A stretch of DNA of 64,000 nt from Celeribacter ethanolicus. GTDB lineage: Bacteria > Pseudomonadota > Alphaproteobacteria > Rhodobacterales > Rhodobacteraceae. Both the position numbers and the translations under genes were made by a program. The notes under the pieces are model-generated. The model had not been told where the DNA came from, made no database searches, and saw only the letters and a program-made list of their open reading frames with translations. This document shows, piece after piece, positions 43,494 through 45,726 of this stretch; within the stretch, counting starts at the first letter, position 1; each line of letters starts with the position of its first letter. The stretch spans positions 62,001 to 126,000 of the forward strand of contig NZ_LRUC01000004.1 of the NCBI RefSeq assembly GCF_001550095.1, written 5' to 3'.

Positions 43494-43597
43494 GGTGAAA
43501 GCCCCCTTGGTCACTTGCGGGCAAGCTATGCGGGGGGGGATTTAGAGTCAACGCGGAATTGACCACACCACATACAATACAAGACACTGTTTATATT

Positions 43598-43620
43598 GAG
43601 TATTTTTCCATCGAAAAACC
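43598..43620 (+). repeat. Dispersed GAGTATTT repeat, copy 7
   Basis: GAGTATTTTTCCATCGAAAA in the divergent gap between atpI and the ArsR gene; shares CCATCGAAAA with the copies at 30160 and 34985. Confidence 0.6.
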
Positions 43621-43673
43621 AGGAGCTCGGCGCGCACGGGACCGTTAGCGCAAAAGGCTCGCGTTTTCGTTAT

Positions 43674-43689
43674 TCAACCAAACGGTTGA
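43674..43689. promoter_or_regulatory. Inverted repeat before the ArsR gene, candidate autoregulatory operator
   Basis: TCAACC-AAAC-GGTTGA is a perfect 6-base inverted repeat with a 4-base spacer, 33 bases before the ATG of an ArsR-family gene. Palindromes of the form AACC-N4-GGTT are common targets of this regulator group. Confidence 0.55.
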
Positions 43690-43721
43690 CCAAACCCGCG
43701 CGCGCGCCTATCGGCAAGAAC

Positions 43722-44075
43722 ATGACCCATGATCTCGACCTCATCTTCGCAGCGCTCGGAGACCCGACCCGACGGGCCATCCTCTCGATGCTTTTGGAAG
43801 ACGACATGGCGGTCACCGATGTAGCCGAACCGTTCGAGATGTCTCTGGCCGCGATCTCCAAACACCTGACCATCCTGACCCGCGCCGGTCTCATCGCGCA
43901 GGAAAAACGCGGACGAGTGAAATGGTGCAAACTCGAACCCGACGCCATGCGTGCCGCTTCAGTCTGGATGCAGGGCTTCGGACAATTCGAGGAGATTGAT
44001 CTCGACGGTCTGGAACGGTTTCTGGAGCTGGAACTCTCGCCCCTGCCCGGCACGACAGAAACCGACACGCGCTAA
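43722..44075 (+). CDS. ArsR-family helix-turn-helix regulator
   Basis: 117 residues. LDLIFAALGDPTRRAILSML and MSLAAISKHLTILTRAGLIA form the winged HTH, with QEKRGRVKWCKLEPD as the wing. No metal-binding ELCVCDL motif is present, so it belongs to the non-metal ArsR group that usually sits beside an SRPBCC (AHSA1-like) gene; no such partner follows here. ATG at 43722 is chosen: the frame is open upstream to 43596, but that part reads through a dispersed repeat. A perfect palindrome upstream suggests autoregulation; a terminator follows. Confidence 0.87.
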   Translation: MTHDLDLIFAALGDPTRRAILSMLLEDDMAVTDVAEPFEMSLAAISKHLTILTRAGLIAQEKRGRVKWCKLEPDAMRAASVWMQGFGQFEEIDLDGLERFLELELSPLPGTTETDTR

Positions 44076-44130
44076 AACCGCCCGGCATCAGAGCAAATCT
44101 GCGGTGAAGACCGCCCCCGAGACAGAAACA

Positions 44131-44163
44131 AACACGCGGAGCACTTCTGCTCCGCGTGTTTCT
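44131..44163. terminator. Strong hairpin terminator between ArsR gene and small peptide gene
   Basis: AACACGCGGAGCA pairs perfectly with TGCTCCGCGTGTT (13 base pairs) around CTTC; T-rich bases follow on both strands, so it can end both convergent transcripts. Confidence 0.85.
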
Positions 44164-44195
44164 CTTCAGCACTGTCTGTGCCGTGCAAGCTGCAA

Positions 44196-44264
44196 TCAAA
44201 AGACAAAGCTCAGGATTGCACCGACAACGACAACGAGACCGACAAGATAAATGACAGAGTTCAT
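44196..44264 (-). CDS. 22-residue hydrophobic membrane peptide
   Basis: ATG at 44264 opens a 22-codon frame, MNSVIYLVGLVVVVGAILSF followed by VF, a single membrane-spanning helix with hardly any other residues. GGAGAAGAG lies just before the ATG, and a perfect terminator-like hairpin follows the stop. It lies 66 bases behind a universal stress protein gene on the same strand and may be its co-transcribed partner. Its ribosome-binding site is held in a 12-base-pair hairpin (44269-44309). Tiny membrane peptides of this look are widespread in Rhodobacterales; function unknown. Too short for certainty. Confidence 0.55.
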   Translation of the reverse strand: MNSVIYLVGLVVVVGAILSFVF

Positions 44265-44268
44265 AACT

Positions 44269-44309
44269 CTTCTCCGCGTTTGTTCTGTTACAGAGACAAC
44301 GCGGAGAAG
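44269..44309 (-). promoter_or_regulatory. Hairpin covering the ribosome-binding site of the 22-residue peptide
   Basis: On the minus strand CTTCTCCGCGTT (44309 down to 44298) pairs perfectly with AACGCGGAGAAG (44280 down to 44269) around a 17-base loop. The second arm contains the GGAGAAG ribosome-binding site of the peptide starting at 44264, so the structure would block translation unless opened. Confidence 0.5.
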
Positions 44310-44330
44310 ACCCGGAAGTTCCCGTGCGCC

Positions 44331-44744
44331 TTAGCGCACCACGAAAACCGACATCTTGGCATGCGAGGCGAGCGTGCCCGCGTTCGAGCCGAAGATATAT
44401 TCGGCAAAGCCCGGCACATGGCTGGCCATCACCACGAGATCTGCGCCCAACTCATCGCTGGCTTTCATCAGAAGCGCATCGAGATCAATCCGCAAATCCG
44501 TCGCGATCACGGGGTGCGGCGTGACGGGACGCCCATAACGGTCGGACAAGTCGGCTGCAAAGGCCCGGAGCCGCGCCTCATATTCGGCAGGGGTGTGCCC
44601 CAGAGCATGCGGAGTTTCGGGAGCAACCCCCACCACATGAACGGCCGCATCGTATTGCGCCGCAAGATCGCCCGCGACACCCAAAGCCTTTTCGAGGCGG
44701 TCCGCATGGCCGAGATCGACGGGGATGACGATCGTTTTAAACAT
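44331..44744 (-). CDS. Universal stress protein (UspA family)
   Basis: 137 residues. FKTIVIPVDLGHADRLEKAL at the start and GADLVVMASHVPGFAEYIFG plus SNAGTLASHAKMSVFVVR at the end match the UspA fold. The ATP-binding pattern G-2x-G-9x-G(S/T) is altered (ASHVPGFAEYIFGSNAGTLA), giving uncertain nucleotide binding. GAAGGAGGAGAT before the ATG at 44744 is a strong ribosome-binding site. Induced by stress in most bacteria; the tiny membrane peptide gene follows. Confidence 0.9.
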   Translation of the reverse strand: MFKTIVIPVDLGHADRLEKALGVAGDLAAQYDAAVHVVGVAPETPHALGHTPAEYEARLRAFAADLSDRYGRPVTPHPVIATDLRIDLDALLMKASDELGADLVVMASHVPGFAEYIFGSNAGTLASHAKMSVFVVR

Positions 44745-44826
44745 ATCTCCTCCTTCTGACCTGCCTGTGCAAATCCCGTTCATTCTAACAGAAATGGAAG
44801 GTTACCGATATGCGGGAGGTCAACCC

Positions 44827-45726
44827 TCAGCCCTCGTGCTCGAGCAGGAGATAGAGCGCCAGAATGGTCAGGCCGATGCCGCCGAACACCAGCGCGGGCG
44901 GCGTGCCATGGCCCAGAGCGATCTCCCAAATGATCACCCAGGACGGCACGAGATAGGTGTAAGCCATGACCTTGGCCGCTGCCAGACGCACGGTGGCATA
45001 GGCCAGAAGCGTCGCCGTCGTGGTCGTGGCGAACACCGTGATATAGCCCAGCGCGATCCAGACGATGGCCGGAAGATGGGCCCAGTCGGTCGCCAGCACG
45101 TCTTTCCAGCCGAAAAGCAGGATGACGAGCGAGGCGGAGGCCAGCACAAAGAAGGTGAAGACCAGCGTGCGCTCGCCTCGGTGCAGGCGCGGCACCAGCG
45201 GGGTGTAGATCGCATGCGCCACGACGCCGATGAAATAGAGCGCCTCGCCGCGTCCGACATGAAAGGCCAGAAGCGCATGGATGTCGGCGCGGAAGATCAC
45301 CCAGAGCGCGCCCGCCGCCCCGATGGCAAGCGCCATGGCGATGCGGCGCGTGGTGATCTGGCGCATGATCAGATAGCCGAAGCCCGCCGCCAGAAGCGGC
45401 GTCAGGGTGAAGACGGCGGAGGCGGAGACCGGCTCTGCGGTTTTCAGACCGACGAACATCATCACAAAGTAAAGCGCGAAAATACCGCCAAGGATCAGGT
45501 AGCGCCAGGGCTGACGCGTGGCCTCGCGCGGGATGCCGCCCGTGGCCATGGCCATGATGCCGACAAAGATCGTCGCCGCGACGAAGCGCACCCCGTTCAG
45601 CGCCAGCGGCGTGATCTCGTTCGCCGCCATGGAGCCCAGCGAGAACGATCCGGCCACGAGACAGGAAAAGGTGAGCATGGCCAGATGGCCATTGCGGCGG
45701 TCGGCGGCGGTCGCGTCATGGGGCAC
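44827..45726 (-). CDS. EamA/DMT-family transporter
   Basis: 299 residues with ten predicted membrane helices in two EamA repeats (first with LVAGSFSLGSMAANEITPLA and AEPVSASAVFTLTPLLAAGF; second with RGEALYFIGVVAHAIYTPLV and VRLAAAKVMAYTYLVPSWVI). Family members export amino acids or metabolites; substrate unknown. It follows a LysR regulator on the same strand after a 141-base gap, so regulation by that protein is possible. Confidence 0.88.
   Translation of the reverse strand: MPHDATAADRRNGHLAMLTFSCLVAGSFSLGSMAANEITPLALNGVRFVAATIFVGIMAMATGGIPREATRQPWRYLILGGIFALYFVMMFVGLKTAEPVSASAVFTLTPLLAAGFGYLIMRQITTRRIAMALAIGAAGALWVIFRADIHALLAFHVGRGEALYFIGVVAHAIYTPLVPRLHRGERTLVFTFFVLASASLVILLFGWKDVLATDWAHLPAIVWIALGYITVFATTTTATLLAYATVRLAAAKVMAYTYLVPSWVIIWEIALGHGTPPALVFGGIGLTILALYLLLEHEG

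Follow-up and report, generated by a model that had tools for sequence, protein, structure and literature searches.

A candidate EcfG-type promoter that overlaps one arm of a hairpin enclosing the Shine-Dalgarno sequence of a conserved hydrophobic peptide gene in Celeribacter

The window analysed here comprises 64,000 nucleotides of Celeribacter ethanolicus DNA (contig NZ_LRUC01000004.1). A frame for a hydrophobic peptide of 22 residues lies in it at 44264-44196 of the reverse strand, behind a co-directional gene for a universal stress protein (uspA), just as the original prediction had described: the product of this gene was identified by Pfam search as PF00582 (E 5.4e-17), its stop codon is located at 44333-44331, and the peptide start follows 66 nt downstream. 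In the direction of transcription, the locus comprises:

44827..45726, reverse strand: EamA-type transporter gene (PF00892; Pfam search of the window protein only)
44331..44744, reverse strand: universal stress protein gene (PF00582, Pfam), co-directional with the peptide gene and the presumed source of read-through
44318..44322, reverse strand: -35 element GGAAC of an EcfG-type (general stress response) promoter, from an exact match to GGAAC-N16-CGTT
44298..44310, reverse strand: 5' arm of the hairpin, equal to the promoter spacer end plus the -10 CGTT (44301-44298), from fold and sequence
44281..44297, reverse strand: hairpin loop of 17 nt (fold), with the predicted own-promoter start at about 44292-44289 (from the usual distance to the -10)
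44268..44280, reverse strand: 3' arm of the hairpin with the Shine-Dalgarno GGAG (44275-44272), from sequence and fold
44196..44264, reverse strand: gene for the 22-residue membrane peptide MNSVIYLVGLVVVVGAILSFVF (ORF list, conservation and sequence)
44130..44161, reverse strand: intrinsic terminator, stem of 14 pairs and T-rich tail (terminator search; other Celeribacter loci by eye)

The hairpin is a perfect stem in which 44310-44298 pairs with 44280-44268 around the loop 44297-44281: perfect pairing, a loop of 17 nt and a Shine-Dalgarno in the 3' arm had all been correctly predicted, whilst the stem is 13 bp and not 12 bp long. The predicted terminator is also present, with 14 pairs in place of 13. 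It is the sole terminator-like site in 43500-45000 and, since shuffled sequences contain 2.0 such sites on average, it stands out by its stem length and not by count; at the same place in other Celeribacter loci, GC-rich inverted repeats with T-rich tails were seen by eye in the alignment. An Rfam search of the region gave hits to ar35, to two microRNA families and to two further families, none of them reaching its cut-off; the weak full-length match to the small RNA ar35 (RF02346; 44125-44254, reverse strand; 21.2 bits versus a cut-off of 45) was best over the terminator. The stem could also have been nothing but the intrinsic terminator of uspA, a reading that we rejected: GTTATG and not a U-run stands directly 3' of the stem, and the terminator search called no site there, only 44161-44130.

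The peptide has a GRAVY score of 2.36 and resembles Type I toxins in being short and hydrophobic. It was found in 9 of 20 Celeribacter genomes, eight with the 22-residue form and one (L014) with a form of 24 residues, and pairwise comparison of the eight 22-residue loci gave 208 synonymous versus 69 non-synonymous codon differences: the frame is thus conserved at the protein level, a point on which the original prediction could have failed. Using a profile built from 42 of 76 distinct peptides, 98 of 394 Rhodobacteraceae genomes gave a match at E<=0.01. The consensus reads MNxIIYLVGLVVVVLAILSFxGLR, with M1, Y6, G9 and V12 invariant among the 42 profile peptides. Relatives in named genomes (80 kept of at least 160) come from Devosia, Mesorhizobium, Bosea, Paracoccus, Roseibium, Bradyrhizobium and others. 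Searches of Pfam and NCBIfam with the peptide gave no family above its cut-off. YohP (PF25659) is a small membrane protein that it resembles in being short, hydrophobic and single-span, and from which it differs in profile score (E 0.083; 13.3 bits against a cut-off of 27). The literature searched, including part of the S. meliloti small-proteome study (PMC10117765), contained no account of this peptide. We also asked whether the EcfG-dependent non-coding RNA ReC64 of R. etli might be a mis-annotated copy and discarded the idea, as its length of 88 nt (PMC3892343) would be too short for a frame of 66-75 nt together with leader and terminator. Some genomes carry the peptide gene twice, with copies some 100-230 bases apart (G227:C22:40583/40811; G207:C1:892404/892527; G067:C4:152814/152917). 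Records titled Opitutus, Solirubrobacterales, Burkholderiales and Frankia (L066, L061, L075 and L112) also carry this otherwise alphaproteobacterial peptide; because the Opitutus-titled locus shares its promoter and leader with a Devosia locus (L069), these are likely mis-binned or mislabelled contigs.

Between the uspA stop codon and the peptide Shine-Dalgarno lies a feature absent from the original prediction: an exact match to GGAAC-N16-CGTT at 44322-44298. This is the EcfG1 motif of Rhizobium etli according to PMC3892343, and the similar motif GGAAC-N17-20-GTT is given for Sphingomonas melonis in PMC6599016. The form GGAAC-N15-18-NGTT occurs within 160 nt upstream of the peptide in 59 of the 80 relatives kept (of at least 160), compared to 0.47 expected from shuffles, and in 36 of 49 further readable loci (60 fetched, 11 without a peptide start by pattern), compared to 0.41 expected. 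The stricter [CT]GTT form was found within 150 nt in 21 of 35 readable loci of the initial searches; here, four of the 39 loci L006-L044 (L016, L022, L034 and L036) were dropped, showing no peptide start by pattern. All eight Celeribacter loci of the 22-residue type exhibit the promoter motif. Across the own genome, the motif as such shows no enrichment (57 matches versus 87 for a reversed control pattern), and hence it is informative solely through its position upstream of the peptide. On the other strand, inspection by eye for a reverse promoter formed from the inverted repeat revealed no GGAAC at the right distance.

In the genome of the window, phyR and nepR are found together with an ECF sigma gene; the sigma gene is termed EcfG-like from its position beside nepR and its ECF domains. 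The phyR-nepR gap (L162:1501-1533) itself contains two opposed GGAAC-N17-CGTT motifs that overlap over most of their length, each -10 lying near the -35 of the other. NepR, the anti-sigma factor, is present in 188 of the 394 family genomes: it was found in 87 of the 98 genomes with the peptide versus 101 of the 296 others (Fisher p=2e-22, uncorrected for relatedness and genome completeness). Within the genus, NepR is present in all nine peptide genomes versus 5 of 11 others (p=0.014), and none of the six NepR-less genomes has the peptide. Among the 11 peptide genomes of the family that lack NepR, eight were fetched as loci and seven of these had a readable start: five (L019, L029, L035, L043 and L205) are without the GGAAC motif, and the two in which it is present (L037 and L203) come from genomes that are 92% and 64% complete. 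The peptide gene thereby shares both the promoter motif and the co-occurrence with NepR with the EcfG/PhyR/NepR regulon of Alphaproteobacteria, as this is described in PMC3892343 and PMC6599016; the literature searched mentioned neither this peptide nor a promoter-embedded lock. The gene probably encodes a small peptide that spans the membrane once and belongs to the general stress response of Alphaproteobacteria.

The 5' arm of the hairpin consists of the promoter spacer end and the -10, and RNA from the own promoter would therefore start in the loop, without this arm. We compared both RNAs using a folding model. The region (226 nt, terminator included) folds with a z-score of -4.46, none of 200 shuffles being as good. 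The probability that the Shine-Dalgarno is unpaired was 0.001 in the read-through RNA versus 0.34 in the own transcript, and its opening cost 20.3 versus 6.2 kcal/mol, with the latter value indicating that the modelled own transcript keeps some Shine-Dalgarno pairing. In a fixed-length comparison, opening in the window costs 11.1 kcal/mol more in read-through than in own-promoter RNA: at 389 control gene starts, the same difference was 0.39 +/- 2.42 kcal/mol with a maximum of 9.5, and thus the window exceeds them all.

These results lead us to propose, on the basis of sequence and modelling, that the promoter may well double as a cis anti-Shine-Dalgarno that limits peptide synthesis to mRNA started by EcfG, an explanation that we favour without regarding it as settled. 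The downstream half of the promoter, comprising the spacer end and the -10, is the reverse complement of the Shine-Dalgarno region. In unstressed cells EcfG would be held by NepR, so that RNA over the peptide gene would be read-through from uspA; this would carry both halves, form the 13-bp hairpin and leave the peptide untranslated. Under stress, the released EcfG would begin transcription within the loop, presumably 6-9 nt past the -10, and the resulting mRNA of about 170 nt would be devoid of the 5' arm, have an open Shine-Dalgarno and end at the strong terminator. As the 5' arm belongs to the EcfG-type promoter, switching would depend on where transcription starts. A lock against leaky synthesis would in turn suggest that the peptide is costly outside stress. 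Computational support is provided by the conservation of the peptide, the promoter motif, the co-occurrence with NepR, matched changes of both halves in some lineages and the predicted folds; the start site, the dependence on EcfG, the read-through, the block of translation, the cost of leaky synthesis and the function of the peptide are what we infer. To the extent of this proposal, the original suggestion of a membrane peptide that is linked to stress and translated under control of the hairpin gains support.

It could be argued that the peptide is driven by EcfG and that the hairpin has no regulatory role, a C/T-rich spacer and a purine-rich Shine-Dalgarno having come to form the repeat through chance or drift; we consider this doubtful, albeit the most serious objection to the lock. 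Purine/pyrimidine bias indeed inflates simple shuffles, in which 26 of 84 loci reached p<0.05: because shuffling dissolves the purine-rich Shine-Dalgarno, these were judged to be biased and were replaced by swap tests, in which the pairing of the promoter half with its own leader is compared to that with the leaders of other loci, a design preserving base composition and Shine-Dalgarno. For the first swap set, leaders at least 72% identical to one already kept were removed. The Devosia test (n=12) gave p=5e-5, which is the floor of the test, although it was not blind, Devosia being already prominent in the earlier shuffle ranking; the idea itself came from Celeribacter. Celeribacter (n=5) gave p=0.026, and the other short leaders, mostly from Mesorhizobium (n=11), showed no effect (p=0.35). 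The long leaders (n=39) gave p=0.035 over their full length and p=0.0026 over their last 22 nt. A fresh set (n=35), fetched afterwards and unthinned for relatedness (L173 is a near-duplicate of L037 from the first set), comprised 35 of the 36 motif loci, L188 with its motif at -160 being omitted, and gave p=0.002 over the full leader length and p=0.003 when only the last 22 nt were used. At L218, a member of this set, the stem is some 18 bp long and contains one bulge, and the -10 sits at the edge of the loop.

As a control, pairing of the promoter half with the coding start showed no excess, with p 0.46-0.98 in the first five sets and 0.17 in the fresh set. Pairing of sequence upstream of the -35 with the leader gave p=0.011 for Devosia (23-44 nt upstream), p=0.027 for the long leaders (22 nt upstream) and p=0.042 for the fresh set (22 nt upstream, with the last 22 nt); given these three small values, a small general pairing effect is possible. 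An origin of the repeat by chance would fit these few control pairings, as well as the absence of the hairpin from several orthologues and from the mostly-Mesorhizobium group. Against it stand the swap tests, which preserve the bias and still detect specific pairing in Devosia, Celeribacter and the fresh set, and the effect in the window, which lies above all 389 control gene starts.

The lock that we propose is unevenly spread across the loci. Within Celeribacter, L012 is without a hairpin, L009 and L010 possess only a weak, different one, and the long stem of L011 barely alters access to the Shine-Dalgarno (+0.2 kcal/mol). We calculated fold energies of the 78-nt start region for the 24 Devosia-like loci, of which 16 have the motif and 8 lack it: 12 of the 16 loci with the motif fold at -17.9 kcal/mol or better, with arm sequences that are very different, two fold weakly (L093, -14.8; L111, -12.1 kcal/mol) and two have no lock (L094 and L123; -6.3 kcal/mol). 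Six of the loci without the motif fold at -6.3 to -15.4 kcal/mol, the other two being L092 (-20.1 kcal/mol) and L098 (-20.9 kcal/mol). The Mesorhizobium loci have no lock, and several of them close the Shine-Dalgarno more in their own transcript. At five of these (L118, L119, L120, L085 and L086) we saw by eye a short inverted repeat in the own leader (e.g. GGCAAT...ATTGCC) with the Shine-Dalgarno in its loop, and translation control may therefore differ there.

The lock was stronger at loci with the end of a co-directional gene no more than 300 nt away (43 versus 36 loci, p=1.3e-4), an association that is confounded with lineage and for which the upstream genes were called by a simple codon-usage caller. 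It is seen with short leaders alone (23 versus 14 loci, p=0.0015), is not significant with long leaders alone (20 versus 22 loci, p=0.08), and has the same direction in the fresh set, again without significance (23 versus 12 loci, p=0.13). Occurrence of the peptide behind uspA in relatives, which the original prediction had suggested searching for, is not general. The upstream gene of the 22-residue Celeribacter loci is usp in four of eight (L006, L007, L008 and L013) and EamA-like in the other four (L009-L012), whose upstream proteins cluster by BLAST and were likened by eye to the PF00892 protein of the window. In Devosia, the upstream genes encode an NMT1/THI5-like protein (Pfam, one of six), a small protein without a family and a protein that we read as LacI-like. 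Since the upstream neighbour differs in this manner, the lock is not tied to uspA alone. At nine loci of the family (L169, L178, L192, L194, L195, L199, L216, L217 and L218), the distance from the end of a co-directional frame of 250-319 aa to the peptide is 19-67 nt, with the frame ending near the EcfG motif.

A perfect 13-bp stem shortly past the uspA stop could also act in the read-through RNA in some other way, as an RNase III or stability element or as a transcriptional barrier for the upstream gene, and at some Devosia loci a few U residues do follow the stem. This we regard as improbable: the stem in the window has neither a U-run nor a terminator call, and the specific pairing is that between promoter half and Shine-Dalgarno region, with none between promoter half and coding start. 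A Shine-Dalgarno within a stem, in a stress neighbourhood, likewise recalls an RNA thermometer or an element opened under heat or other stress by a small RNA, both of which the original prediction had raised; such control now appears very improbable. In the heated model the Shine-Dalgarno is unpaired with a probability of just 0.001 at 42 C and 0.01 at 70 C, so that it is still 99% paired at the latter temperature, and the thermometer was rejected on this modelled stability, as the modelled stem does not open within the growth range. A small RNA is not needed, with all Rfam families under their cut-offs and the 5' arm absent from the predicted stress transcript. Ribosome movement from uspA, the third route that had been put forward, is unlikely on account of footprint size, as a gap of 20 nt lies between the uspA stop codon and the 5' arm. 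That the inverted repeat is instead a repressor operator in the DNA is also very improbable: the repeat does overlap the -10 and the promoter in those lineages that have it, but arm sequences vary widely among lineages with complementarity kept, unlike a typical protein site.

The promoter-embedded lock has a counterpart in phage T4. The longer upstream transcripts of gene e, soc, 49 and I-TevI fold the Shine-Dalgarno into a helix and, in the case of gene e, late promoters placed in the DNA encoding the 5' strand give rise to short, translated transcripts, an arrangement kept in related phages (PMC3014915). By analogy, the lock proposed here would follow the logic of gene e: in the folding model the Shine-Dalgarno is sequestered in the longer transcript, and the promoter motif is placed in the 5' strand, so that a short transcript with the predicted start would be without it. 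The two differ in that T4 relies on its own late promoters and on the timing of infection, whereas here a candidate host promoter of the general-stress type precedes a chromosomal gene predicted to encode a small membrane peptide. In the transposase genes of IS10 and IS50, impinging transcripts sequester the transposase start region; these share the protection from read-through, but belong to mobile elements and have no stress promoter. Within the literature searched, which largely excluded subscription papers, we found no such promoter-embedded lock in a bacterial stress gene.

With this peptide, the general stress response would gain a very short, widely conserved membrane peptide without a Pfam or NCBIfam family. 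The lock would represent a simple cis design by which a bacterial chromosome could tie protein output to the sigma factor responsible for starting the mRNA. If this is true, read-through of an operon does not have to yield protein, and such genes would be misjudged from RNA-seq alone; other alternative-sigma promoters can be searched for the same design. More tentatively, and with rather less confidence than for the single locus, a family of alphaproteobacterial membrane peptides of 22-25 aa, acting in the general stress response, may have acquired such insulation in three or more lineages (Celeribacter, Devosia and, within the family of the window, that of L218), the promoter spacer and -10 having perhaps evolved into an anti-Shine-Dalgarno: output would then be set by the sigma factor, with the lock needed as the peptide would act on the membrane and be costly outside stress.

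The motif search in the own genome also produced an observation regarding its assembly: three motif matches recur between contigs C10 and C48 at a constant offset of 111,717 bases over 116 kb, which suggests either a long duplication or redundant assembly contigs.
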